Positions 3,243 to 56,255 of a DNA stretch of 56,255 bases are shown here, piece after piece. Source of the DNA: a virus. A model generated the notes under the pieces. The model was not told the origin of the DNA. It did no database searches and saw nothing but the letters and a program-made list of their open reading frames with translations. The translations under genes and the position numbers were made by a program. Position 1 is the stretch's first letter. The number at the start of each line of letters is the position of its first letter. The DNA is taken from the IMG/VR virus record IMGVR_UViG_3300031269_000017, positions 1 through 56,255 of that record; one strand, 5' to 3'.

Positions 3243-3652
3243 TTTGCGAATTAGAATTTTGGGACAAAGTAAATCTTTTCTTTGGGAGACACAGAACCCT
3301 TAGAAAAAAGATTAGACGCCAACTTACTGATATCATTAGACAATCTCCAAAATGGGAGGAATTTAAGAACCTTCGAACTAAGTATCAATCTGAATTTTCT
3401 TATTCGATGTATATGGGGAGTTAAGATGGATCAGAGTCTGATTGGAAGGATAACGTAGGCAAGATAAGAAGGTTGATATTCTCAAGGGGAAATTGATTGA
3501 TTTTGTGGAAAAGAATCTAAAGTTCTGCATCTCTAGTGATCATGTACCATTATTAAGCTACTCTAAAGTATACAAAGATTTCTATTGGGATTTTGAAGAT
3601 TGGGCTTTCCAAGAATCAGACGTTTACTGGAAAGCGAAAGAAACGTGTTGGG

Positions 3653-17485: not shown

Positions 17486-20107
17486 ATGGTTAAATTAAGT
17501 GCTCGAATTGAAGATCTTCAAAAAAACACAGGATCTTTAGAAGTAAAGAAAATTTGCGAAAACGCATTATCAGAAATCTCAAAAATTAACAAAACTAGAA
17601 TCTCGCCTTCTGCAAAAAAAGAGTTGGCAATTTCTATAACAGAAAATGTTATTGACGAACTTTCTGGATTTGATGAATCAATTGTGGAATCCTTTATTAA
17701 AAAGGAAAAGACTGTATTGACTCTTGATAATCTAGGTATTAGTGAAGCAATGGACAAAATTGCTGAAAGTGATTTGAAAAATCATCCGGCAATTTCATAT
17801 GCCATTAGAGGATTCCAAGATAAACTCTCAAACCCTGATTATTTGATTGCTGAAGAATTTTATAGCAAATTTAAGCCATTCGATTGGCATCCACAAGTCA
17901 AATCCGAACTTGATAATATATTTGAAAAGGTAACAATATACAAAGACGATATTATCATCCAAAAGGCTGTTCATGGTTTAAAAAATTCTAAGTCTTCATA
18001 TTTACTAAAAGGTATTAATGAGACTCTTGAGGCTTATTTGGAAGAAAGAACAAAGAAAAACAAAGAAGAACTTGTTGAAAGACTTGATCGTTTCTCTTTT
18101 GATCATATGATCAGAAACCTGAAAAATGCTGTTCAATCGTCAAATGATAATGAACTTGTAATTAAAGAAGGTAAAGGACAAGCTATACCGAAGGATATTT
18201 ATTCACTCGTTTTTATAAATGAAAATAACGAAATATTTGGTACAGGTAAAGAATTTTACGCAAAATCCGGAAATACTCTTATTAAGCTTAATGAAAGTGA
18301 TGTTTCTTCTCTTTCACATGATTTTGTAAAAGTCAATGAGTTTTTAAATAGTGATTCTGTAAAAATTGTTGGAGACACAATGACTATTTATGGATCAGAT
18401 AGAAAATTTGTACTTGAATCTGTGAATGGCAATGTTAGTATTACTGTCAATGACAAGAAGATGACCAATGAAGAATTCCAAAGTATCTATATGAAATCTG
18501 GAGTTTTATCAAGAAGAAATTCTGACCAAGTCGGAATGATTAATTATATTGTTGAAAACTTTGATTCAATTACCAAAATAGACTTCGGAAAAAGAATTTT
18601 ATCTCCGAATATGGCAAACAGAAGAGTTGATATATTCAAACTTGATGAAAACATTTTTATTACTAAAGAAGATCCTATGATGGGTCGTGTTGATTTTTTC
18701 AAAAATCTTAATGCAACACAATCAAAAAACTTGGTAATAGAATATCTTAATTATGATATTTCAGAATCTTTTACTGAAATGATTTCTTCTGAAGATAAAC
18801 AATTAAAAGAATATTCTAAAGCTAAACAAAGTTATATCAAAGCTATTTCTAAACTTGAAGAAAAAGTAAAAGAGTTGAGTTCAATCAATGATCCTGCTAT
18901 TTTAGAATCTGAAGAATTTCAGAATATTCTTTCCATTTTAAATCAAGAAATTGATTCTTTAAAAGAAGAATATAATTCTTATGTGGCTTCAATTGTTGAA
19001 ATGGAAACGGCACCTACAGCATCGCCTGAAGAAGATGCCGGTAAAGATTTAGGAATAGAAACTGAAAAGGGAGATTTTACAGTAGATGATAAAGTCAAAT
19101 GTCTTAAACTAGAATGTTGTGGAACAATTACTGGTGTTAACGGTGATGCATATACAATATTAACTGACGATGGAAAAACTGAAATATGTAAAGCTGAAGA
19201 TTTAGAATTACTTGAGGTTTCTGAATCTGATGGACTTGAAGATAAAATCGACAAAGTTACAAAGTTTATTGATAAATTAGGAGACGGCGAATCTGATGAC
19301 GAAAAGGAAGATGATGATGAAGAAGAGGGAGACGATGATGATGATGCTGAGGATGATGAGGATGAAGAAGATGAGGATGAAGAAGGAGATGATGATGAAG
19401 AATTTGATGTTGATGGACTTGATGCAAAGGATCCTGATCTTACTACCGAGGCCGAAACCGCTCCTCCCACTACCGATGTAAATGACGCCTCAAAAGAAGT
19501 TGTTGATGCAAACGATACTGATCTCACACCATTAACCGCAGGCGACAAAATTAATAAATCTGGAAAAATTGGAACTGTCCAAGGAGTAAAGGATGAAATT
19601 GCGACTGTATTATTTGATGATGGTTCAACAGAAACAGTAAAAACATCTGAAGTTTCTTTACAAATGAAACATGAAGATTCAATTACTGAAGATCATTCTG
19701 ATGTTGCCGGAGCGGCTCCTATCGAAGATCTTAATTCACTCACACCCGGCGATCGAGTAGAAACTGAGGATGATGTATATGGTTCAGTTCAAGGCGTACG
19801 TGATGATATTGTAACTGTATTACATGATGATGGTTCAACAGAATCTTATGGTCCTGGTGAATTATACTTTGTTAAGAAACACGAAGAAGCAATATCTGAA
19901 GATTTTTCAGCAGGAGATGAAGTTGAATTGACTGATGGTTCTAGAGCTAAAGTTACTAGCACAATTGATGATAAAGTGATGATTATTGACGACCAAGGAA
20001 AAACTTCAACGGTCCCAAAATCTGATCTTAATCTTATCAAGGGAATCGGTACACAAGCAGATGAAGTCGAAGGTAAAGAAAACGATGGAAAATCTGTAGA
20101 TGTATAA
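17486..20107 (+). CDS. Large acidic virion/prohead-core-like protein with four SH3-like repeats
   Basis: 873 residues. Helical N-terminal part (~1-190), a beta-rich middle (~215-340), coiled coil (~440-500), then a repeat region. Four ~45-residue units each follow G-D-x-V-x...G-x-V-x-G-V-x-D-x-x-x-V-L-x-D-D-G-x-x-E (~528, ~685, ~750, ~808), resembling KOW/Tudor-like SH3 barrels. Between units 1 and 2 lies an almost uninterrupted Asp/Glu stretch (~595-645) encoded by GATGAT/GAAGAA runs. Its place after gp15 and before gp55/gp4/portal, its late promoter motif and its strong acidity suggest a prohead core or internal virion protein. No homologue named with confidence. Confidence 0.6.
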   Translation: MVKLSARIEDLQKNTGSLEVKKICENALSEISKINKTRISPSAKKELAISITENVIDELSGFDESIVESFIKKEKTVLTLDNLGISEAMDKIAESDLKNHPAISYAIRGFQDKLSNPDYLIAEEFYSKFKPFDWHPQVKSELDNIFEKVTIYKDDIIIQKAVHGLKNSKSSYLLKGINETLEAYLEERTKKNKEELVERLDRFSFDHMIRNLKNAVQSSNDNELVIKEGKGQAIPKDIYSLVFINENNEIFGTGKEFYAKSGNTLIKLNESDVSSLSHDFVKVNEFLNSDSVKIVGDTMTIYGSDRKFVLESVNGNVSITVNDKKMTNEEFQSIYMKSGVLSRRNSDQVGMINYIVENFDSITKIDFGKRILSPNMANRRVDIFKLDENIFITKEDPMMGRVDFFKNLNATQSKNLVIEYLNYDISESFTEMISSEDKQLKEYSKAKQSYIKAISKLEEKVKELSSINDPAILESEEFQNILSILNQEIDSLKEEYNSYVASIVEMETAPTASPEEDAGKDLGIETEKGDFTVDDKVKCLKLECCGTITGVNGDAYTILTDDGKTEICKAEDLELLEVSESDGLEDKIDKVTKFIDKLGDGESDDEKEDDDEEEGDDDDDAEDDEDEEDEDEEGDDDEEFDVDGLDAKDPDLTTEAETAPPTTDVNDASKEVVDANDTDLTPLTAGDKINKSGKIGTVQGVKDEIATVLFDDGSTETVKTSEVSLQMKHEDSITEDHSDVAGAAPIEDLNSLTPGDRVETEDDVYGSVQGVRDDIVTVLHDDGSTESYGPGELYFVKKHEEAISEDFSAGDEVELTDGSRAKVTSTIDDKVMIIDDQGKTSTVPKSDLNLIKGIGTQADEVEGKENDGKSVDV

Positions 20108-20376
20108 TGATAAGAGAATTCCAAGAATATCTTAAAGATAGAATAGGTAGTCAAGAGCAAGAACAAGAATTATATGACGATAAGTATAATTCTCATGTCG
20201 AAATTGCAATTATAAAAGTAGATAAAATCATTGAGCTTTTAGAAGATCTTCAAAGGGATCTTCTAAAAGCTACTATTTCATATTCAGACATTGATAACAA
20301 AATCAAATATTTTAAAGATTTGAAAGAAGAAATCAAAACTGAAGACACTAACACTAAACAAACTAAAAGCACATAA
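20107..20376 (+). CDS. Small helical protein (89 aa)
   Basis: Starts with an ATG sharing the last base of the upstream TAA. Entirely helical and charged with a leucine-rich heptad stretch (IIELLEDLQRDLLKA), probably a coiled coil. The start MIREFQEYLKD resembles T4 capsid-targeting N-termini but lacks the Glu at the expected cleavage site. Possibly a core or scaffold accessory to the upstream protein. Confidence 0.65.
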   Translation: MIREFQEYLKDRIGSQEQEQELYDDKYNSHVEIAIIKVDKIIELLEDLQRDLLKATISYSDIDNKIKYFKDLKEEIKTEDTNTKQTKST

Positions 20377-20380
20377 AAAT

Positions 20381-20728
20381 ATGCCAGTATATTGCCCACC
20401 CGATAAATTTAAAGCAGCTATTCTAGAATCACTTGAACAAGATGAACTGACTCCAGATGCATTAATGTATCTAATGAGAATAGCAAATGAAGCAAGTAAA
20501 AAATTGAAATACAAAAATCCTAAAGATCGAGAAGATTGTATAGGTACAGCTCAAGAAGTAATTCTCAAATATTGGAGAGGATATAACCCAGAAAAATCAT
20601 CATACCCATTTGCATATTATACACAAATGGTAGTACATGGATTAGCTAAAGGATGGCATGAGCTTCATCCAATCAAAACAATTAACAAAGTTTCATTATC
20701 CCACGAGAATATTCACAGTTTTGAATAA
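20381..20728 (+). CDS. 55: Late transcription sigma factor (T4 gp55-like)
   Basis: 115 residues (T4 gp55: 185). Residues ~20-95 follow the gp55 core: LMYLMRIANEASKKLKY, DCIGTAQEVILKYWRGYNP (like DGIEASIKGLHNFDETK in T4), and YPFAYYTQMVVHGLAKGWHE, the reduced sigma region 2 that opens promoters. Region 4 is absent, as in T4, where the clamp and gp33 replace it. Predicted to direct host RNA polymerase to the GATATATA motifs in this window. No gp33 is seen here. Confidence 0.8.
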   Translation: MPVYCPPDKFKAAILESLEQDELTPDALMYLMRIANEASKKLKYKNPKDREDCIGTAQEVILKYWRGYNPEKSSYPFAYYTQMVVHGLAKGWHELHPIKTINKVSLSHENIHSFE

Positions 20729-25417: not shown

Positions 25418-26368
25418 ATGGTTGATCAGTTATTTACAGAAAAGTTTAGACCCAAGAAACTCGAACATGTTATTCTTCCAACAAGAATTATGGATCATGT
25501 TAAATCCGGAGAAGTTCATCAAAATCTTTTATTACATGGACCTCCAGGTTTAGGAAAAACTTCACTAGCAAAAGTATTAACAATGGATCGTCCTACATTA
25601 TACGTCAATGTTTCTGATGAAACTGGTGTTGATGTAATTCGTGAAAAAATTAAAAAATGGTGCTCAACATCATCAGTTATCGATGGTAAAGAATCTACAA
25701 AGTTTGTTTTATTAGATGAGATGGACGGAGCTTCTGATCAATTTTATAAAGCTCTACGTGCAACAATTGAAAAATTTGCAGAAAACGCCAGATTCATAGG
25801 TACTTGTAATTACATCAACAAAGTTCCAGCGCCGATTCAATCGAGATTCGAAATGATCGATTTTAATTTCATAAATAAAGAAGAAGAAAAAGAAGTGATG
25901 ATTAATGTTATCAAAAGAACTTCTGCAATTATCAAATCTTTAGATATCAAAATTGAAAAGGCAGCGCTAATTGAGCTTGTAAAGAGAAATTTCCCCGACA
26001 TGCGTGGAATTCTAAATAAACTTCAAAGTTGGAAAATCCAAGGTATTACGGAAGTCACGATAGAAAATATTAAACAGCTCAATTATTCATTTGCAGATGT
26101 TTTCAAAATTCTTTGTGAAAAACCTGATCCTCAAGGTAATTATAAATTTTTAGTAGCAAATTATTCATCCAAAGTAGATGAAGTTCTTGCATCAATTGGT
26201 ACAGAGTTTCCGGAATATCTTAAGGAAAATAAAGAATCAGAAATTTCCAAATTACCAATGATAATTATCAAAACTGCTGAACACCAAGCACAAAGAACGA
26301 TGGTTATAGATCCTGTGATCACAATGTTATCTTTGGTATTTACCATTCAAAGTATCATCAATTCATGA
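25418..26368 (+). CDS. 44: Clamp loader large subunit (gp44-like AAA+ ATPase)
   Basis: 316 residues (T4 gp44: 319). F-R-P-K-K-L-E-H-V-I-L start; Walker A HGPPGLGKTSL (41-48); FVLLDEMDGAS (~94) is Walker B; FIGTCNYINKVPAPIQSRFE (~130) contains sensor 1 and the SRF arginine finger; MRGILNKLQSW (~197) is the sensor 2 region. It loads the gp45-like clamp using ATP. In T4 the gp62 small subunit is adjacent; here it is not recognisable. Confidence 0.95.
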   Translation: MVDQLFTEKFRPKKLEHVILPTRIMDHVKSGEVHQNLLLHGPPGLGKTSLAKVLTMDRPTLYVNVSDETGVDVIREKIKKWCSTSSVIDGKESTKFVLLDEMDGASDQFYKALRATIEKFAENARFIGTCNYINKVPAPIQSRFEMIDFNFINKEEEKEVMINVIKRTSAIIKSLDIKIEKAALIELVKRNFPDMRGILNKLQSWKIQGITEVTIENIKQLNYSFADVFKILCEKPDPQGNYKFLVANYSSKVDEVLASIGTEFPEYLKENKESEISKLPMIIIKTAEHQAQRTMVIDPVITMLSLVFTIQSIINS

Positions 26369-26833: not shown

Positions 26834-27970
26834 ATGACAAATATAATATTCGATGGTAATTATCTTTTTTATAAAACTTTGTTTGCAGTATTGCACACAA
26901 TGAAACTTAATAAAGATGAAAATTTTTTATCTTCTGATGATCATCAACAAATTTTCATGCAAAAGATATCTGTCGATATGGCTTTCGCAATTAGGCAGTT
27001 TGGTAATCCCACCCGCATCATTTTTACAATTGATGGTAAGTCTTGGAGAAACGAAGTGGAAATTGAAGAAAATGATGGATACAAATCTGGTCGTTCTAAA
27101 GATTTAAAAATTGATTGGGATGCGTTTTATAAAATGATGAATGAATTTGCGACTATTATTGAGCGCAAAGGTTTTATAGTATCTAGGATCGATAGAGCAG
27201 AAGGTGATGATGTTATGTATTTCTGGGCTCAATTATTTTTAGCCAAAAAACAAAATAGTATAATTGTAACTGGAGATAAAGATTTACGACAAATAGTTAG
27301 GTTGAATAACGATAATTACACAGTTGTATTCGATAATAATTCTCAACGAAGATCAATATGCGCAGCCGAAGGGTTACAAGATTGGCTAAAAACTGAAGAT
27401 GAGATTGATATATTTTCAACCGAAACATATATGAATACATCCAAAGATCTTATCCATAATGCATCTAAAAAAATCAAAATAATCGAAATCGATCCCCATG
27501 ATTTCATTTTACAAAAAGCATTAATTGGTGACGACGGAGATGATGTACCACCGTTATTTATTTGGCCAACAAAAAATGGAAAAAAATTCAATCGCATAAC
27601 CCCAAAAAGAGCCGAGGTGATATTAAACCATGTAAGAGAATCCATTGATGAAAAATTAACAATCAAAAATATCACTACATATGCCGATAAAATAACTGAA
27701 GGTATTAGAAAAGTTTCGAAGGTTAAAGAAATTGATGCCGAGTCTATTGAATCCAAGCTTAAACGAAACATTAAGCTTATGTATCTACATAAAAGTGTTA
27801 TACCTAACGAAATCTTTAAAGATTTTATAGTTCATGCCAAGGAAAATTATAAAAAGAAACTTGGTGCGAAATCATATTCTAAACATATGTTAATTGAAGG
27901 CACAAAATACGATAAGCCGCCAGAGTCATTTACAGACGGCATCTTTGGAAAATTGGATAGAAAAAAATGA
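26834..27970 (+). CDS. rnh: 5'-3' flap nuclease (T4 RNase H-like)
   Basis: 378 residues (T4 RNase H: 305). FEN/PIN-type acidic sites in order: IIFDGNYLFYK (Asp7), FTIDGKSWRNEVEIEENDGYKSGR (~70-95, the D-G...R...Y-K-x-x-R arch segment), AEGDDVMYFWA (~130), VTGDKDLRQIV (~152), GDDGDDVPP (~235). It removes RNA primers and 5' flaps during lagging-strand synthesis, consistent with the nearby clamp loader. Overlaps the next start by 4 bases. Confidence 0.9.
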   Translation: MTNIIFDGNYLFYKTLFAVLHTMKLNKDENFLSSDDHQQIFMQKISVDMAFAIRQFGNPTRIIFTIDGKSWRNEVEIEENDGYKSGRSKDLKIDWDAFYKMMNEFATIIERKGFIVSRIDRAEGDDVMYFWAQLFLAKKQNSIIVTGDKDLRQIVRLNNDNYTVVFDNNSQRRSICAAEGLQDWLKTEDEIDIFSTETYMNTSKDLIHNASKKIKIIEIDPHDFILQKALIGDDGDDVPPLFIWPTKNGKKFNRITPKRAEVILNHVRESIDEKLTIKNITTYADKITEGIRKVSKVKEIDAESIESKLKRNIKLMYLHKSVIPNEIFKDFIVHAKENYKKKLGAKSYSKHMLIEGTKYDKPPESFTDGIFGKLDRKK

Positions 27971-28444: not shown

Positions 28445-28470
28445 AACTATTCACAATTTAGAAAATATAA
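28444..28470 (+). promoter_or_regulatory. AAACTT-class promoter (variant)
   Basis: AAACTATT, 11 bases, AAATATAA, ending 8 bases before the ATG at 28479. The -35-like half differs from the others at one of the first six positions (AAACTA), but the spacing is identical. It begins at the stop of the preceding gene. Confidence 0.5.
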
Positions 28471-28478
28471 AAATATAT

Positions 28479-28895
28479 ATGGATCATACCAAGTTATTTG
28501 ACTTTACCAAAATTCTTTTTACAAGACCAGATTTTTATAAAAAAATGAAGTCTTATGAGAAAGCTCGTCATTATTTCATGACTCAAAGATTTATGTCAAT
28601 AAATTTTCCAGTACAAGCTAATCATATTCAGCATATAAAAATAAACCCTTCCGAAGTTTTAGATTATTGGCACCGCGCTCTTTCTGCCATGTATAATAGA
28701 GTTCCTGGATGGATGTATGTTAAAACTGCCAAAGCTAAAAAGGAAGTCAAAAATAAATATATCTCTGAAAACGTCATGCGAGAATACTGTAGTAGATTTG
28801 GGTATTCTATGGACCAAGTTCAAACAGCTATTGATATGTTCGGAGAAAAAATGATAAAGGAACTTAAACAATTTGAAAAAATGACAAAGCAATGA
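28479..28895 (+). CDS. Hypothetical basic helical protein (138 aa)
   Basis: The ATG at 28479 is preferred over an upstream frame opening at 28398 because a promoter motif lies 8 bases before it. 138 residues, basic, mostly helical, with no family recognised. Its own AAACTT-class promoter and its place after gp44, KTSC and RNase H make a replication or transcription role plausible; it is one candidate for the missing gp62-like clamp-loader subunit, but no motif proves that. Confidence 0.65.
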   Translation: MDHTKLFDFTKILFTRPDFYKKMKSYEKARHYFMTQRFMSINFPVQANHIQHIKINPSEVLDYWHRALSAMYNRVPGWMYVKTAKAKKEVKNKYISENVMREYCSRFGYSMDQVQTAIDMFGEKMIKELKQFEKMTKQ

Positions 28896-29124
28896 ATCCA
28901 CTGAAAAATTTTGAATATCGTAATTGGCAAGGAAAAAGTCTAAGAGAACACCCAATTATACAACCTGGTAATTATGATGGTTTATGGTCTGGGTATTTTG
29001 TAGAAATATTATTTGAAATAAGAGTTCCAATAAGATATATAAATTATGGATTTCTGGCGTACTAGGAATTAATTGTGAATGTAAAATAATAGTAACTGAT
29101 AATGGAGAAGTCTATGTTGACTAA
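28892..29124 (+). pseudogene. Frameshifted small gene (~77 aa reconstructed)
   Basis: The ATG at 28892 (ATGA overlap) opens MNPLKNFEYRNWQGKSLREH and runs through DGLWSGYFVEILF; the frame then stops at 29065. In frame 1, coding-like sequence continues from 29017 (NKSSNKIYKLWISGVLGINC, then ECKIIVTDNGEVYVD) to TAA at 29122-29124. The joined product has a coherent beta-rich pattern, so one indel near 29010-29020 split an intact small gene. Family unknown to me by name. Confidence 0.7.
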
Positions 29125-29174
29125 TCAAATCAAACGTTAGCACTTGAATACATAACTTAGAAAACACAACACTA

Positions 29175-29912
29175 ATGAGAACGATATCATTTAGAGACTT
29201 TGTTAATGAAAACAAACGTCAAGCAAAGCAATATTTGCAACAAGGTAAAATTACAAAGGACGAATTAAAGACATTTGTCGATATGGACCCGTCAGGCACA
29301 AAAAACAAGTATGTTGGTTGGATGGCGAAAGTGTATGTTAAAGAGAAGCCTGGTATTGATCAGTTGCGAAGCTATGTCGAAGAGTTTGATGTACTACTTA
29401 ATCGTCGCAAAACAAAAACAAAAGACATTTACCAAATCAAAACGTTTCAAGCACTTGTTGATGAAGTCGATAAAATTAATAACACCGGCGCAAATTTGTC
29501 AACTAAGGACCTTGAAAACGACTATGAAGTTATTCAGGACGACAAAGATTTGCTAGTTATTTGTCCGTACACTCACGAAGCATCAAGAAAGCTAGGAATC
29601 ACAAAGTTTGCATATAGAAAATGTTCTGATGGAAAAACTGATAGCGCATGGTGCACAACATATAAATCTGCTGATCACTTTAACTCGTACTACTTTAAGC
29701 ATAACGTAACGTTTTATTATGTAAAAGTCGTATCTGAGAGATTAAAGCAACAATTAATACGTGAATTTGGTGCAGATCAAGGCGATAGACTAACAATTAG
29801 TGCAATTGCAGTACTTGGTGGCAATAATATGGATGGCTATGATGGTATGGATGGTCGATTAAATGCATCTGATTTGAAAAAATACATTCGAATAATTGGC
29901 TTAGATGATTAA
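29175..29912 (+). CDS. Putative packaged protein with capsid-targeting N-terminus (245 aa)
   Basis: 245 residues. The N-terminus MRTISFRDFVNE followed by NKRQ resembles the T4 capsid-targeting sequence MKTYQEFIAE, which is cut after Glu by the gp21 protease. The C-terminal half (~150-215) has RKCSDGKTDSAWCTTYKS, FNSYYFKHNVTFYYVKV and a later GG-x-N-N-M-D-G-Y-D stretch, a W-C-T...F-x-x-Y-Y...Y-Y-V pattern I have seen in other phage proteins of unknown role. Codon use (more G and C in third positions) differs somewhat from neighbours. The same frame stays open for 46 codons beyond the stop. Confidence 0.6.
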   Translation: MRTISFRDFVNENKRQAKQYLQQGKITKDELKTFVDMDPSGTKNKYVGWMAKVYVKEKPGIDQLRSYVEEFDVLLNRRKTKTKDIYQIKTFQALVDEVDKINNTGANLSTKDLENDYEVIQDDKDLLVICPYTHEASRKLGITKFAYRKCSDGKTDSAWCTTYKSADHFNSYYFKHNVTFYYVKVVSERLKQQLIREFGADQGDRLTISAIAVLGGNNMDGYDGMDGRLNASDLKKYIRIIGLDD

Positions 29913-30050: not shown

Positions 30051-30104
30051 TGGGCACCAAAATCAAGTTTCTTGATAGTTTAGTGTAAAATTAAATATAC
30101 TTTG

Positions 30105-30141
30105 AGGATTGTTGATATATACTATCAATAATCCTTTTTTT
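30105..30141 (+). terminator. Terminator hairpin containing a late promoter motif
   Basis: 13-bp stem with one G-U pair (30105-30117 with 30123-30135), 5-base loop TATAC, then seven T up to the base before the ATG at 30142. The loop side carries TGATATATAC (30113-30122), the late promoter motif of this window. In one direction it can end transcripts from the 25.4-30 kb operon; as DNA it can start the structural operon, with a leader of only about 14 bases. Confidence 0.8.
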
Positions 30142-32097
30142 ATGCAAGAACTTAGCAATATTGGTGACTATGTAATATATGATCAAAAAGAAGCATTTCT
30201 GAATGTTATACGCATCAGAGATTTCTTTTTGGAAGTTTCCGGTGAAAACATTTCAAAGGAATTTAGATGGTCAACAGACAATAAAATATACTCAGCGTGG
30301 ACAGCAATGACCATGGATACTTTGAGAGAAGTAGAATTAAATATTTTAGAAGAATTGTGGGTCGAAGTCAAATTCACATTAATCGAATCGGGTGCTGTAA
30401 CTATCAATTCTTTTTCATTAGATCTAGAAATTAAAAAGGCGAATAAGAATGACTCGATAACATCACCCATATTTACATGCTCAGAAAATGGTAATTTATT
30501 AAGCACTGTCGATCTTCAGAGTCTTTGTTTTAATCCTTATGATGTTAATCCTGCTGCATGTCTTTACCAAGAATTAAGTTATGCTGTCAATAATCTTTTT
30601 GGTCATGAAGTTGAATATTTTAAATGTGATCCAGACGTAAAATCTAAAGATATCACATTTAATGAATATTCAATTTATTCTGTAACTCAACAAAAATGTC
30701 TTAAAGTGCTAGTCGAGAATAACGAGTTTCCTGATGCAGCTCTTCAACATAATCCATTTGGTATAGATTTTGAATTACCTTTCGAGGTTCATATTGATAA
30801 GAATTATTGGGAAGAAATTTTTGGTCGTTCTACAGCACCGCAAAAAAGAGATGTTCTTTATTTTAAACTTAACAATAGAGTTTATGAAGTCATAAGTTCA
30901 TATCTTTTCAAAGCATTTATGGAAAGAGATTCATATTGGAAAGTGAGTTTGATTAAATATCAACCTAAAGCAAATAGATATGAATCTCAAGAAATACGAG
31001 ATACTTTAGACGCATTAACTACAGATTCATCAGAACTTTTTGAACAAGAATATCGAGAACAAGAAGAGAAAATTGCTAAACCTGATCAATATAGTAGATT
31101 TAAGGGAGATGGTAAATACGATCCATCTAGAAGCAAGATTCATGAGGATATAGAAATTTCCGAGTATAAACTAGAAAACTACTCAACCATCATTTCCGAA
31201 TATCAATATAGACTTTCAAGTCTGGTAAATCTTTCAAATACTGAACAAGAACCTGCCATAGTTTACCGCGAAGTCGGTAATTTATCTAAAGATGCAGAAT
31301 TTTCATATAGTTCATGGTTTGCTACTGACAAGTTCAAATTTTATGCACCACAGGATAACTTACTATCACAAGCATTAGATACAAACACTAACGAATTATT
31401 GATCACGATTAATAAAAATAGATCATATAATGTTGGTGATTATCTTAAATTTTCTAGAGTACCAGAAATAACATTTTACGGGAAAATTATAACAGTCAAT
31501 TCTCCGACTTCTTTTACACTCAAGATTAATTCTGATATCGTTAACTATCTTGATAATTTCAATAGTATGTGGAGTGGAATGTCAAATTATACAGTAGAAA
31601 AAATAGTACCAAACAACTTTTTAAGTGGCTATTCAAATAATCAAGGTATTAAAATAGATCTTTTTGCAAATCGTTATTTCATAATCACACTTAATTCAGA
31701 AGAATATTTAATACCACTAAATAAAAATCTAATCAATGGCGAATTCCATGGATTGTTCATAAATATCTCAAACAAATTTAAACAAATAAGTTTACATTTA
31801 TGGGAAAGAAAATGGATATCCGGAGTTTTAAGCTCTCCACAAACCACCGATCTATACAACAATTTTTCCATGACAATAAATAATGTGAATTCTGAAGAAA
31901 GAATCTCAGACACAAATTACGAAATAAATGCATCTAATTTGATATTAACAAATATCAGAGTATATGACCAAACATTAGAAGCAGAAAAGCAGGCAAATTT
32001 GTTAAACCAAAATATAGTACAAGACGAACAGCGTACTATAATAATTGATAACGCATTTCCTTCTTCACAGCTTCCATTTATAGCACACACAAAATGA
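30142..32097 (+). CDS. Virion structural protein with C-terminal lectin-like domain
   Basis: 651 residues from the ATG right after the terminator; a TTG-led reading from 30109 runs through the hairpin and is unlikely. Beta-rich throughout. The middle contains F-K-L-N-N-R-V-Y-E-V-I-S-S-Y-L-F-K-A-F and SYWKVSLIKYQPK, recalling neck or baseplate proteins of T4-like phages. The last ~180 residues (ISNKFKQISLHLWERKW ... ILTNIRVYDQTLEAEKQ) look like a concanavalin/LamG-type fold ending in a conserved I-I-I-D-N-A-x-P tail. First gene of the late operon before terminase; exact T4 equivalent not identified. Confidence 0.65.
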   Translation: MQELSNIGDYVIYDQKEAFLNVIRIRDFFLEVSGENISKEFRWSTDNKIYSAWTAMTMDTLREVELNILEELWVEVKFTLIESGAVTINSFSLDLEIKKANKNDSITSPIFTCSENGNLLSTVDLQSLCFNPYDVNPAACLYQELSYAVNNLFGHEVEYFKCDPDVKSKDITFNEYSIYSVTQQKCLKVLVENNEFPDAALQHNPFGIDFELPFEVHIDKNYWEEIFGRSTAPQKRDVLYFKLNNRVYEVISSYLFKAFMERDSYWKVSLIKYQPKANRYESQEIRDTLDALTTDSSELFEQEYREQEEKIAKPDQYSRFKGDGKYDPSRSKIHEDIEISEYKLENYSTIISEYQYRLSSLVNLSNTEQEPAIVYREVGNLSKDAEFSYSSWFATDKFKFYAPQDNLLSQALDTNTNELLITINKNRSYNVGDYLKFSRVPEITFYGKIITVNSPTSFTLKINSDIVNYLDNFNSMWSGMSNYTVEKIVPNNFLSGYSNNQGIKIDLFANRYFIITLNSEEYLIPLNKNLINGEFHGLFINISNKFKQISLHLWERKWISGVLSSPQTTDLYNNFSMTINNVNSEERISDTNYEINASNLILTNIRVYDQTLEAEKQANLLNQNIVQDEQRTIIIDNAFPSSQLPFIAHTK

Positions 32098-32911: not shown

Positions 32912-34672
32912 ATGGCAATAAGTAATAAAGTATGGACCAGTACAATGGTCGAAGAAAATGTTAAGGCTATTGAGGAAGGTCGACAAGCAGACACATCGTG
33001 TTTCTGGTCAAGTAATCCACAATACAGAGCGGCAAATATTAATTTTGAGCTAACAGATATAGAATTAAAGGAGTTTGTTAAATGTTCTAAGGATGTAGTT
33101 TATTTTGCTAATAAATATTGTTATGCGATGACTGATGAAGGTGTTGCGAATATTGTATTAAGACCTTATCAGGAAGATATGCTTAAAACGTTTAAGGATA
33201 AAAGATTTGTTATCATGCTTGCTAGTAGACAAATTGGTAAAACTATCACATCAGGTATTTTTTTAGCTTGGTATGCATGTTTTCATTTTGATAGAAATAT
33301 TCTAATTGTTGCGAATAAACAAGCTACTGCTGGAGAAATTGTAAGTAAAATCAAGGAAATTATTAAAAATCTTCCATTTTTCTTAAAGCCTGGAATTATT
33401 TCAGGTGGGGCTTTGGGACTTAGTTTCGATAATGGATGCCGTCTTTTCTCACAAGCAACAACAAAAACAGCAGCTCTTGGTTTCGCGATCCACTTATTAT
33501 ATGCTGATGAGTTTGCACACATTCAAAGAAATTTTGTTGTGCCCTTTTATAGATCTATTTATCCTACATTATCCTCATCAAAAATATCAAAAATAATTAT
33601 TAGTTCGACTCCTAACGGTGCTAATTTATTTAAGCAATTGTATATGGGTGCAATTAATGGTGCTAATACATACACGCCTATCAGAGTTGACTGGTGGGAG
33701 GTACCTGGTCGTGATGAAGAATGGAAAGAACAAGAAATTCAAAACCTTGGTTCTCCTGAATTATTTGAACAAGAATACGGTAATAAGTTTGTAGCAAGTT
33801 CTACGATGCTCTTGACTGCAAGAATTGTTGAGTTTGCAAATAGAATAGCTAAAACTTATGAATGGAAAGATATTGAAGATACTGATTTAATTCCAGAGGA
33901 TTACATTGATTTGACTTGGCATCCTGACTTTGATCCAGATAATATATGGGAAGAAGATGACAAATTTACAATAAGTATAGATTTAGCAGATGGTGTTGGT
34001 CGAGATTATACAGTTTTGAATATTTTTAAAATTGAAGCTATGTCACCAGCACAAATCAGAACAACAAAGAATTTTAGTGAAGAGCACGATTTTTTTAGAC
34101 TTATACAGGTTGGGAAATTTCACTCAAATTTGCGTTCTATAGAAGAAGTCGCTAAAGTTCTTGAGTTACTTGTATATGATGTATTCGACCCTGAAATTGT
34201 GACAATAGTTCTCGAAATAAATTTTAAAGGACATTATCTTTATGAAAAAATGTCTAAACATCCGGAATTCGTTGAAGAAATGTTTATGTATAGCAAACAT
34301 TCGTTAAAGGCTAGTAGTGAATCTGTGGGAATAAAACTTAATAAGGATAATAAACAAACTTATTGTAGAGAATTAAAAAGAGAAATGCAAAATAAAAGAA
34401 TTATTGTTACTGATGAAGATACAGTGGAAGAATTATCGTCGTTTGGACTAAACGATAGAGGACAATATGAGGGTCAAGGGAGTCATGATGATTTAGCTAT
34501 GTCTTGCGTTGATTTATTACCCTATTTTGAAAGTGAAGATTTTTATGAACATGTAGAAGATATCATTGATTTAGTCGATGAGCGAAGAAGAGAAGCAATG
34601 TTTAAAAGAATAGAAGAATATGATGGAGGTGACGGATACCTTGACACAATTAAGGTATTATCATCATTATAA
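32912..34672 (+). CDS. 17: Terminase large subunit (gp17-like)
   Basis: 586 residues (T4 gp17: 610). ATPase: adenine-binding RPYQEDML (~87), Walker A ASRQIGKT (~105), Walker B LLYADEFAHI (~192), coupling motif ISSTPNG (~230). RNase H-like nuclease: ISIDLADGVGRDYT (~350), VLEINFKGHYLYEKM (~432), and SHDDLAMSCVDL (~528), giving the three acidic metal sites. It drives DNA into the head through the gp20 portal and cuts the concatemer. Confidence 0.96.
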   Translation: MAISNKVWTSTMVEENVKAIEEGRQADTSCFWSSNPQYRAANINFELTDIELKEFVKCSKDVVYFANKYCYAMTDEGVANIVLRPYQEDMLKTFKDKRFVIMLASRQIGKTITSGIFLAWYACFHFDRNILIVANKQATAGEIVSKIKEIIKNLPFFLKPGIISGGALGLSFDNGCRLFSQATTKTAALGFAIHLLYADEFAHIQRNFVVPFYRSIYPTLSSSKISKIIISSTPNGANLFKQLYMGAINGANTYTPIRVDWWEVPGRDEEWKEQEIQNLGSPELFEQEYGNKFVASSTMLLTARIVEFANRIAKTYEWKDIEDTDLIPEDYIDLTWHPDFDPDNIWEEDDKFTISIDLADGVGRDYTVLNIFKIEAMSPAQIRTTKNFSEEHDFFRLIQVGKFHSNLRSIEEVAKVLELLVYDVFDPEIVTIVLEINFKGHYLYEKMSKHPEFVEEMFMYSKHSLKASSESVGIKLNKDNKQTYCRELKREMQNKRIIVTDEDTVEELSSFGLNDRGQYEGQGSHDDLAMSCVDLLPYFESEDFYEHVEDIIDLVDERRREAMFKRIEEYDGGDGYLDTIKVLSSL

Positions 34673-34754: not shown

Positions 34755-37700
34755 ATGGCTAAGATCACACTTGATTTAAATTCATTTAAAGCATCTGGTG
34801 TTTACACTGTAGAATTCGATACATCTGAAAGAATAGTTCTTTCGACAGAAACAATAAGATTAGTAGTAGGATTTTCAAGAAAAGGACCATTTAATGCTCC
34901 AGTATTCTTGAGAGATCTTCGAACTTCTCGACAAATATTCGGACAAACTGATACCTTTTTGGAAAAAAGAGGATCATTTTTCCATAGAGCAATAGAGACT
35001 TGTTTACAAACAGGTCCTGTATTTGCCTTAAATCTACTACCACTTAACAACGTTCCAATTAACGAAGGTGGTGATGCAGTAGATTACAAATCTTTTTCTG
35101 TAAATACAACTGGAGAAAATGGACCTGTATCTCAGGATCTATTAACTTCTTTCTATAATAAAGAACGTTTCTGGTTTCCAGATACTGAAAACTTTATTGC
35201 AATCACAGAAAATAATCCACTAAATAAAGGAAGATTATTCAACCTTGTGAATTTAGGACAGACTCCACTATCATTTATAGTGAGAAAACCTAATCCTAAA
35301 GTTGCAGGATATAACATAACTGCTAGAGAATATTACGGTTCAAGTAATGTTCCAGATTATGTTTATGAATTTGATTTCATGGAAGATTATTTCGTAGAAA
35401 TTATTATGATCGAAGGTGATTGGACTGATTATAAGAGACTTGGTGAAGATCCAGTATACTCTAGTTTCTTTGATGCAAGAGGAGTAAAAGTTGAAAGACT
35501 AAACGAATTTTTAACTCTTACTGAAACAACTGTAATTGGAAGTTTTGTAGGATCAATAATACCTGACTTTATTGATGGTAATGGTTCTAATCAATTTATT
35601 GAGATCTTAGTAAATAACGCTGTTGCTTCAACTGGTGTATTCTTGTCAGTAAACAGAGAACAGCTTGACGATTATACAAATTCAGAATATAAAGTTGATA
35701 TGATCGGACATAATCTGATCAGTACTACTGATGATACTGTAGACTTTTTATCATACAACACACCAATATCTAAAGCAATAGCTTATGACGATCTTGATAT
35801 TAACGCACAACTTGCTACTCCTACCTTTGTAACTACTGATTATGCGGCAGGAACTTATGCTGCGGCATACGTTGAATCATCACCAATCGGTGGAAATTCT
35901 GGAGTATTTGGAAATGTTTTAGTGGTTCCGAAACCGGCACCAAATCAAACTGTTTTCACTGTTGCGAAATACCAAGAATTACTAGATACTTTATCTAATA
36001 TTTCATTAATTGCTACTAATGGTTCAACTTATGGAAACGATTATGTAAAAGTTGATCAAGTAATTGACAACGGTTCAGAATTTAGAGTGGTTCTTTCTAA
36101 TCCAGAAGGTGTCGCAGAATCTTATATAACTGAAACTACTGCATCACTTATAGTTGGTGGAGGTACTAATCAAATTACTGTACCAGAAGGCGAAGCATTA
36201 AGTACAGGTTCAGGAAACGGAATTATTTTAGTTGAAGCACCAGGATTCAAACATTATTTTGAAGTTGATGCTGTAACTGCACCTGGTGGTGGATCACCTG
36301 ATGTGATCGATATTTCTATCACACCAACTGCTGTATCGATGGCACATTCGCCACTAGAATATGTAGGCGGTCAAGAAGAAATTGATGAACTTGCTGCAGC
36401 TTTAGCAATAGCGACATTTGATTATTCAGATATTAAAATTACACAATGGGCAGCATATTCAAACAATAACGACTATGTTCCAAACCTATTAACATCTGTA
36501 GGTGGAGCTGATGGAGTATCAGTTGTATATGAACCAGCGAGTGTATTTGTTCATACTGATGATAATTTAGCAGGAGATAATTCAAATGAGGATTATATTG
36601 AAGCTTACCCAGGATCTAAACTTGCAAGAGACATTAAAGCTGCAAGAGTTATTGATGGAGACTTAATCTATTATGCTGCAAACGCATTTAGTTATATCGA
36701 TATTGATGATGCATGGGGTTCTGATTTTGATGTAACATCTAATCTTAAATATGGTTCACTCGGAGTAAGATTAAGACAATATTCAAATGCTGGACTCACT
36801 TCTCAGATAGTAGGAAAAACAAATGACTTTGTAACTGGTGAAACAGGTGCAGAAACATTCATGAATGGTTCTACTGCATATGGATCTGGTGATGATATAT
36901 TACTTTATTCTGCAGCAATTGAAGATCTAAAAACTGTAGTTGATATTATTCCTGGTTCATTAAATGGGTCTAATACATCATTCAGAATTGCTGAAGCTGA
37001 TGCATCAAAAATAGAAATTGGTTATTTCTTAGTAAATGCTGCTGGAGATTATCTAGTAAGAGTAACAGGAAAGATTAAATCTATTAATGCATCAACAGGA
37101 GTTGTAGAATATGAGATAAGTGCACCATCAGCAGTCGGAGTTACTGCAGATACTGTAACCGCATTTACACCTATTAATGATTATGTTGATAGATTACATT
37201 TTACTTACCTCAGTGGTTTTAAACTAACAGAATTTCATTTACCTAAAAACCAAGATCAAGCTAAAAAGATCTACGGTGTAATTGAAAATACTAACTTGGC
37301 TGATACATTAGCAAGTAAGGACATTATAAGTTTCCGATATATTATCGATACCATGAAATTTGGAGTTGATACTATGATGGGACCTAAGGCTGTTCTTGCA
37401 AGACTTGCTAAGAAGAGACAAAAATGTATGGCAATCTTAAATGCGCCATCGATTAAAGAGTTTATGGAGTCAACTGATCCTAGATTTACTGACGATCCTC
37501 AACCATTAATTGGGAATCCTAAACCAACACTGAAAGCTGAATATATTGCTTCAGGTGGAAACTTATCATTAGGACCATCATTTAGATTTACACTACCTGA
37601 TGAAGAAAATGGTGCTAAGTTTATGGGAGTATTCTCACCGTTTGTAACATACAGAGATAATAACAAAAATATTTCTGTACCACCAGCAGCTGATGTATCA

Positions 37701-38261
37701 AACAACTTTATCAGAAAATTCTTAAATGGTCAACCTTATGCAATTGTTGCAGGACCAAGAAGAGGTATTCTTTCAAATCCTAAATTAGTAGGTCTTGAAT
37801 ATGAATACACACTTGCTGATAGAGAATTCTTAGAACCATTTGGAATTAACCCAATTGTAACTATAAGAAACGTAGGTATAATGATATTCGGAAATCAAAC
37901 TGCATACCAAAGAACATTATCTGCATTTAATAATCTGCACGTTAGAGATCTATTAATTACAGTAGAAAATGCTATTGAAGATGTTCTTATTCAATACTTA
38001 TACGAATTCAATGATGCTACAACACGATTAGAAATTAAATCAATTGTAGAAAATTATCTTGAAAGTGTAAGAAGTGCCGGTGGAGTATTTGATTATGAAG
38101 TCATCATGGATGAAACTAACAATACGGCTGAAACAATCGATCAAAACTTCGGAATTATCGATGTAGGAATTGAGCCAGCACGAGGAATGCAGAAATTCGT
38201 AAACAGAATTACTGTTCTTAAAACTGGAGCAATATCTTCTGGTGGATTTACAATAGCATAA
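34755..38261 (+). CDS. 18: Tail sheath protein (gp18-like), enlarged
   Basis: 1168 residues against 659 in T4. N-terminus with GVYTVEFDTSERIVLSTETIRLVVGFSRKGP-type start of sheath proteins (read in pieces) and PVFLRDLRTSRQIFG. The conserved C-terminal core (~880-1168) has DTMMGPKAVLARLAKKRQKC, PYAIVAGPRRGILSNP, LEPFGINPIVTIRNVG, IFGNQTAYQRTLSAFNNLHV and a final strand exchange region. The middle (~260-850) is beta-rich, Gly/Thr/Ser-rich and has no T4 counterpart; it probably forms extra domains on the outside of the sheath. Followed by the tube gene, as in T4. Confidence 0.9.
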   Translation: MAKITLDLNSFKASGVYTVEFDTSERIVLSTETIRLVVGFSRKGPFNAPVFLRDLRTSRQIFGQTDTFLEKRGSFFHRAIETCLQTGPVFALNLLPLNNVPINEGGDAVDYKSFSVNTTGENGPVSQDLLTSFYNKERFWFPDTENFIAITENNPLNKGRLFNLVNLGQTPLSFIVRKPNPKVAGYNITAREYYGSSNVPDYVYEFDFMEDYFVEIIMIEGDWTDYKRLGEDPVYSSFFDARGVKVERLNEFLTLTETTVIGSFVGSIIPDFIDGNGSNQFIEILVNNAVASTGVFLSVNREQLDDYTNSEYKVDMIGHNLISTTDDTVDFLSYNTPISKAIAYDDLDINAQLATPTFVTTDYAAGTYAAAYVESSPIGGNSGVFGNVLVVPKPAPNQTVFTVAKYQELLDTLSNISLIATNGSTYGNDYVKVDQVIDNGSEFRVVLSNPEGVAESYITETTASLIVGGGTNQITVPEGEALSTGSGNGIILVEAPGFKHYFEVDAVTAPGGGSPDVIDISITPTAVSMAHSPLEYVGGQEEIDELAAALAIATFDYSDIKITQWAAYSNNNDYVPNLLTSVGGADGVSVVYEPASVFVHTDDNLAGDNSNEDYIEAYPGSKLARDIKAARVIDGDLIYYAANAFSYIDIDDAWGSDFDVTSNLKYGSLGVRLRQYSNAGLTSQIVGKTNDFVTGETGAETFMNGSTAYGSGDDILLYSAAIEDLKTVVDIIPGSLNGSNTSFRIAEADASKIEIGYFLVNAAGDYLVRVTGKIKSINASTGVVEYEISAPSAVGVTADTVTAFTPINDYVDRLHFTYLSGFKLTEFHLPKNQDQAKKIYGVIENTNLADTLASKDIISFRYIIDTMKFGVDTMMGPKAVLARLAKKRQKCMAILNAPSIKEFMESTDPRFTDDPQPLIGNPKPTLKAEYIASGGNLSLGPSFRFTLPDEENGAKFMGVFSPFVTYRDNNKNISVPPAADVSNNFIRKFLNGQPYAIVAGPRRGILSNPKLVGLEYEYTLADREFLEPFGINPIVTIRNVGIMIFGNQTAYQRTLSAFNNLHVRDLLITVENAIEDVLIQYLYEFNDATTRLEIKSIVENYLESVRSAGGVFDYEVIMDETNNTAETIDQNFGIIDVGIEPARGMQKFVNRITVLKTGAISSGGFTIA

Positions 38262-39039: not shown

Positions 39040-39089
39040 AAATAAAATATAGAATTTAAACTAAAAATTTTAGATACAAATATTCACAA

Positions 39090-39116
39090 GTGGAGATCGC
39101 AAGATCTCCACTTTTT
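39090..39116 (+). terminator. Rho-independent terminator after the sheath/tube operon
   Basis: Perfect 9-bp stem GTGGAGATC / GATCTCCAC (39090-39098, 39103-39111) with GCAA loop, then TTTTT. GCAA is a stabilising GNRA tetraloop. It separates the sheath-tube unit from the chaperone-tape measure unit. Confidence 0.9.
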
Positions 39117-39146
39117 ATGCTCCAAAGCAAATTCATTTCTAGATAA

Positions 39147-39155
39147 AGATATATA
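39147..39155 (+). promoter_or_regulatory. GATATATA-class (late) promoter motif
   Basis: AGATATATA just downstream of a terminator and 37 bases before the start of the chaperone/baseplate-type gene. The terminator-then-motif arrangement supports promoter function. Confidence 0.55.
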
Positions 39156-40321: not shown

Positions 40322-40334
40322 AATGAAAAAGTTG

Positions 40335-40359
40335 CCTGGGTAGATATATACTACTCAGG
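40335..40359 (+). promoter_or_regulatory. Late promoter motif inside a hairpin before the tape measure
   Basis: CCTGGGTAG / CTACTCAGG (9 bp with one G-U) around a 7-base ATATATA loop; AGATATATAC at 40342-40351. No T-tract follows, so it is not a normal terminator. The tape measure ATG is 20 bases past the motif. Confidence 0.6.
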
Positions 40360-40370
40360 TAATTTACTTT

Positions 40371-53056: not shown

Positions 53057-53078
53057 TTGTACTCTATATTTTGTGTAA

Positions 53079-53097
53079 TGTAGATATATAATCTACA
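53079..53097 (+). promoter_or_regulatory. Palindromic late promoter motif before the fibre operon
   Basis: TGTAGAT-ATATA-ATCTACA (7-bp perfect stem) with AGATATATA at 53082-53090, 30 bases before the ATG at 53121. Third example of the motif lying in an inverted repeat (also 30105 and 40335). Confidence 0.55.
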
Positions 53098-53120
53098 CTA
53101 TATTAAAATAATATTGTACA

Positions 53121-53558: not shown

Positions 53559-56255
<2,697 letters not shown>

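Follow-up and report, generated by a model that had tools for sequence, protein, structure and literature searches.

Whether one short element can both end transcription of one operon and start that of the next is the question raised by a hairpin that lies directly in front of the structural genes in a 56,255-nucleotide stretch of viral DNA (IMG/VR record IMGVR_UViG_3300031269_000017, positions 1 to 56,255; hereafter, the window). An earlier note on this DNA had proposed such a double role. The genes that form the setting are the following:

20381..20728, + strand: gp55-like late sigma factor (phrog_234, E 3.6e-11)
25418..26368, + strand: DNA polymerase clamp loader, upstream of the hairpin
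26834..27970, + strand: exonuclease, upstream of the hairpin
30142..32097, + strand: neck-like protein of 651 aa, encoded by the gene that opens the late operon; a relative in PTm1 bears the annotation neck protein
32912..34672, + strand: terminase large subunit
34755..38261, + strand: tail sheath

Among named phages, the closest relatives are T4-like phages with Bacteroidota hosts (Prevotella Lak, Tenacibaculum PTm1, Chryseobacterium, and Flavobacterium phages), together with phage PAU. No DNA similarity to named phages was found, Rfam and tRNA searches returned no match, and the neck protein had no relatives among solved structures. The start codon at 30142 is correct, as alignment with related neck proteins begins at the first residues. 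If the timing of expression follows that of T4, the hairpin would sit where early and middle genes run into late ones. Its parts are as follows:

30104-30117, + strand: 5' arm, GAGGATTGTTGATA
30118-30122, + strand: loop of 5 nt, TATAC
30123-30136, + strand: 3' arm, TATCAATAATCCTT
30104..30136, + strand: whole hairpin, 14 pairs, 2 of them G-U
30135-30141, + strand: T7 tract, which abuts the ATG; read-through RNA may terminate here
30142-30144, + strand: ATG of the neck/terminase/sheath operon

The location of the element and its T7 tract, which runs up to the start codon, are as the earlier note had given them; the stem, described there as 13 bp, has 14 pairs (12 Watson-Crick and 2 G-U). A stable stem followed immediately by a T tract, as in intrinsic terminators, is present at 30104-30141, while the G-C-rich stem usual for such terminators is absent (3 of 14 pairs are G-C). 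Folded with its flanks, the hairpin has a predicted energy of -16.3 kcal/mol (z = -5.0), which was equaled by none of 200 shuffles; this and the other folding energies given here were predicted at 37 C, for RNA that is rich in A+U. The element is kept in a near-identical phage, G001 (a 173.5-kb phage record, ~99% identical to the window over most shared stretches), in which an A at 30104 turns a G-U pair into A-U and the tract is T8.

In a genome that is 68% A+T, a hairpin may arise by chance, and loose terminator and motif scans of the window indeed stayed near background level. However, when both strands were scanned for stems of 13 pairs or more with loops of 3-8 nt and T6 at the stem end, one site was found in the window, whereas 60 dinucleotide shuffles gave 0.05 on average. 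Together with the covariation of the arms at the orthologous junction, described below, this makes a chance origin scarcely credible.

The promoter half of the element consists of the following features:

30114..30121, + strand: late promoter box GATATATA, spanning the upper 5' arm and part of the hairpin loop
30113-30122, + strand: motif TGATATATAC, which contains the box
30127, + strand: predicted late transcription start (+1), an A in the 3' arm, placed by T4 spacing and A enrichment

The motif, previously assigned to the loop side, is present, and it fills the whole loop plus the top of the 5' arm. An exact copy of the 10-mer TGATATATAC occurs once in the window, and 9 sites with at most one mismatch were found versus 7.6 expected; with no enrichment in the window, the exact 10-mer was dropped as promoter evidence. 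A scan for sigma-70 promoters revealed no excess in the window. The box followed by one more base, GATATATA[AC], was strongly biased to the coding strand, with coding-to-other counts of 22:0 in G001 and 126:4 in 79 loci of relatives, which were located through the tail sheath. The counts for AATATATA in the relatives' loci were 141:10, and those for the T4 late consensus, TATAAATA, were unbiased in relatives (51:39), the box here being [GA]ATATATA. Over 176 sites, A was enriched 12 and 13 nt past the box start (0.77 and 0.65, respectively). T4 late promoters start transcription ~13 nt after the box start, and require gp55, gp33, and the clamp. In the window phage, the gp55-like sigma factor probably recognises GATATATA. 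Because of the strand bias, the recurrence before late genes, the gp55-like sigma factor, the A enrichment, and the conservation of the junction, the reading of the box as a genuine late promoter is well supported; as judged from sequence, it would work like a T4 late promoter, but with a different box. The leader from the predicted start at A30127 to the ATG is 15 nt long, AAUAAUCCUUUUUUU.

Many uncultured phages carry the neck gene, with identities of about 31-42%. In most of these relatives (metagenomic contigs, thinned for redundancy and designated L below), the late box at the orthologous junction lies inside a hairpin directly before the neck gene, and the stem sequences are unrelated: the arms are GCCAGCATCC...GGATGCTGGC in L040, where they surround the ATG, GATCGGTG...CACTGGATG in L028, and ACGGAGGATATATA...CTCCGTTTTTTTATG in L035. 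Because distant relatives keep a hairpin with a completely different sequence, the hairpin is very probably functional. Most relatives have no T tract, and the stem covers the AUG. The fused terminator form at the neck junction was found only in the window phage (G001 included) and in the L035/L138 pair, and conservation of the T tract rests on near-identical genomes plus this one distant pair. An ordinary terminator with a T tract stands immediately 5' of the late box in L045, L063, and L068, and L102 and L178 likewise have a separate terminator before the box. Three designs, i.e., a separate terminator, a fused terminator, and a start-covering hairpin, thus appear to share the neck junction. 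When genomes intermediate between the window species and the other relatives were searched for, only an already known contig came up. The junction is absent from Tenacibaculum phage PTm1, where the neck gene begins 2 nt after its upstream neighbour, and from phage PAU, where the gene order differs.

Some further features were seen around this junction. In the more distant relatives L083 (position 1690), L086 (261), and L089 (1697), with a neck identity of ~31%, an ATG upstream of the neck match is preceded by a late box that a stem encloses, and the box itself forms part of the 5' arm. A conserved gene of ~136 aa lies directly 5' of the neck junction in relatives (phrog_35599 in L040, L061, and L075); window positions 28445-29912 are taken up by a gap of 730 bp and by a 245-aa ORF that looks unrelated and has no family matches. 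A piece of ~151 bp at window positions 29033-29183 is missing from G001 (the match jumps from 29032 to 29184), and holds a late-box-like AGATATATAAA.

For each late box preceding a gene, the structure spanning the predicted late start was computed. At 29 distinct neck junctions, the median was 10.6 kcal/mol, and the structure was significant versus shuffled flanks at 21 of them, the remaining 8 having no significant structure. At 71 late promoters of the sheath, tube, p39193, and terL genes, the median was 1.6 kcal/mol and 2 were significant (rank test, 9e-12); 11 motif hits within the neck reading frame had been taken out by hand, and the neck group was picked after the pattern had been seen. 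An arm-swap test between phages is less open to this objection to post hoc group choice. The energy was -16.2 kcal/mol with own arms versus -7.8 kcal/mol with foreign ones, none of 20,000 permutations reached the observed mean, and 14 of 17 5' arms preferred their own 3' arm. With 56 control promoters of other genes, no effect was observed (p = 0.54). These results indicate that the two arms co-evolve at the neck junction. When the swap was limited to codons 1-3, the signal was weak (p = 0.02); coverage of the AUG is therefore a trait of some lineages, not of all.

Two explanations in which RNA structure around the box is not what is selected were weighed against these data. A DNA-level palindrome at the promoter, whether a cruciform or a site bound by a dimeric regulator, would agree with the symmetry of the arms around the box. 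Yet from phage to phage complementarity is retained with arm sequences that bear no relation to one another, the placement of the arms about the box is often asymmetric, and the pairing of several phages extends into the start codon and codons 2-3; we consider a palindrome acting as DNA highly improbable. An ordinary terminator and an ordinary promoter might also overlap merely for economy of space, enclosure of the box not being selected. Several terminators of this phage do lie close before a late box (in three G001 terminators, the box is 16-31 nt downstream), and some relatives have a terminator and promoter side by side at the neck junction. However, paired arms enclose the box at the neck junction in most distant relatives, while 69 of the 71 other late promoters lack such enclosure, which makes simple overlap improbable. 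An RNA hairpin that encloses the late start remains the preferred reading.

We next consider how such a hairpin would silence read-through RNA. Three further sites in the window carry a late box together with a terminator or hairpin:

39088..39155, + strand: separate terminator (39088-39113), then late box (39148-39155); unfused comparison site
40331..40370, + strand: hairpin with a second late box (40343-40350), 20 nt upstream of the start codon of ORF 40371 (1339 aa); no T tract
53075..53120, + strand: hairpin with a third late box (53083-53090), before ORF 53121

The coding strand of G001 has 148 tracts of T6 or longer, of which 12 are accompanied by a hairpin of -8 kcal/mol or better. Clear terminators in G001 range from -13.6 to -20.1 kcal/mol with tracts of T6-T9, and the neck hairpin (-15.2 kcal/mol, T8), the only one among them to hold a late box, falls within this range. 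As its energy and T tract fit the phage's other terminators, and as the form recurs in L035 and L138, termination in the window species is supported, and we regard it as plausible in the window phage. Since most relatives have no T tract, termination is not the conserved feature.

A purely translational block, as at T4 gene e or I-TevI, would keep ribosomes off the AUG with no termination, the T tract being incidental. The prevalence among relatives of a start-covering hairpin without a T tract agrees with it, as do the documentation of this design in T4 and the lack of a T tract at the second hairpin promoter of the window (40343). The preferred reading, an enclosing hairpin, is favoured by the computed cost of opening the start region, which is higher in read-through RNA than in late RNA, with medians of 10.8 versus 2.8 kcal/mol at neck junctions, compared to 2.8 versus 1.9 kcal/mol for controls. 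The values for the window are 7.8 and 1.5 kcal/mol, respectively. Against a purely translational block, the stem in the window and in G001 ends before the T tract and leaves the AUG in weak pairing at most: in the window fold of read-through RNA it lies in 4 weak outer pairs, which are absent in G001. In addition, the T7 or T8 at the foot of the stem resembles the other terminators of the phage, and it recurs in the L035/L138 pair. For the window phage, we therefore view a translational block alone as unlikely; the hairpin likely acts by termination, with occlusion of the ribosome site as an aid.

The earlier claim of a terminator and a promoter in one element is thus borne out in part. The promoter half is well supported and the terminator half is plausible in the window phage. 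What the relatives conserve, though, is a hairpin over or next to the start codon, usually without a T tract; the translational version of read-through silencing had been overlooked. Across the group, termination would be one of two or three interchangeable ways to silence read-through RNA, and the function that is conserved is probably to shield the late operon from early read-through. We give roughly even chances to the broader proposal that the junction evolves among three interchangeable insulators, with the absence of structural proteins from early read-through as the conserved trait, and that the fused terminator-promoter is a real class of element in T4-like Bacteroidota phages.

In the mechanism we propose, and consider fairly likely, the structural operon would be insulated by a late promoter nested in a hairpin. 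All the evidence is drawn from sequence: the element and the promoter motif are present in the DNA, and the co-evolution of the arms is observed in the relatives; we infer the termination, the start site, the timing, and the effect on translation. Read-through RNA coming from the upstream replication genes would contain both arms and fold. In the window phage, the 14-pair stem with U7 would most likely terminate this RNA just before the start codon, and in any RNA that escapes, the end of the stem would lie inside the footprint of the ribosome. RNA polymerase with the gp55-like sigma factor would, late in infection, initiate inside the hairpin, at about 30127. Because a start inside the hairpin leaves out the 5' arm, the late mRNA would have an open leader and be translated.

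The principle of a late promoter in a hairpin is already known from phage T4, where the late promoters of e, soc, 49, and I-TevI lie inside mRNA hairpins that sequester the start (PMC3014915, PMC2988022); lysozyme synthesis from the folded RNA is cut 100-fold (PMC3014915). As in these T4 genes, the promoter here lies in DNA that specifies the 5' portion of a hairpin preceding a late gene, and early read-through RNA, but not late RNA lacking the 5' arm, is predicted to fold. Coverage of the start codon is shared with T4 by relatives of the window phage. The differences from T4 are that the hairpin precedes the first gene of the main structural operon, that the box reads GATATATA, and that the window hairpin has a T tract and does not clearly cover the AUG, which makes it terminator-like. 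The stem followed by a T tract at an operon boundary resembles the inter-operon intrinsic terminators of T4-like phages (PMC1524935), but the next late promoter lies within the stem-loop rather than downstream, and the stem is A+T-rich. The seg43(25) hairpin of Aeromonas phage 25 is likewise stable and ends just upstream of the start without sequestering it, but seg43(25) is a homing endonuclease gene and has its ribosome binding site just below the stem (PMC2988022). No precedent for a terminator and a late promoter in one hairpin was found in the open literature; this is weak evidence of novelty, subscription papers being mostly outside the search. If our reading is correct, the T4 hairpin trick is not peculiar to lysis and homing genes, a hairpin with its own late promoter guards the main structural operon across a broad group of uncultured phages, and a start-hiding hairpin can be converted into a transcription terminator. 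It would also provide a late promoter box for T4-like Bacteroidota phages, with which early/late boundaries in their genomes could be marked.

Hairpin-enclosed late boxes also occur before other genes. The one before ORF 40371 has counterparts in L019 (6102) and L023 (8735), and in the latter the stem runs into a T5 tract. G001 has additional ones at 83303 and 89647, and the stem at 89647 takes in part of the start codon. In L013, hairpin-enclosed late boxes precede genes at 3303 and 9647, the stem of the second reaching the start codon. A near-perfect inverted repeat of 17 pairs, without a T tract worth the name, was seen at 20234-20271, at the end of ORF 20107-20376 and just before the gp55-like gene. 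Finally, near the end of the window (54740-55540), there are GGATATACAGG-like repeat units, for which a collagen-like Gly-X-Y reading is likely.
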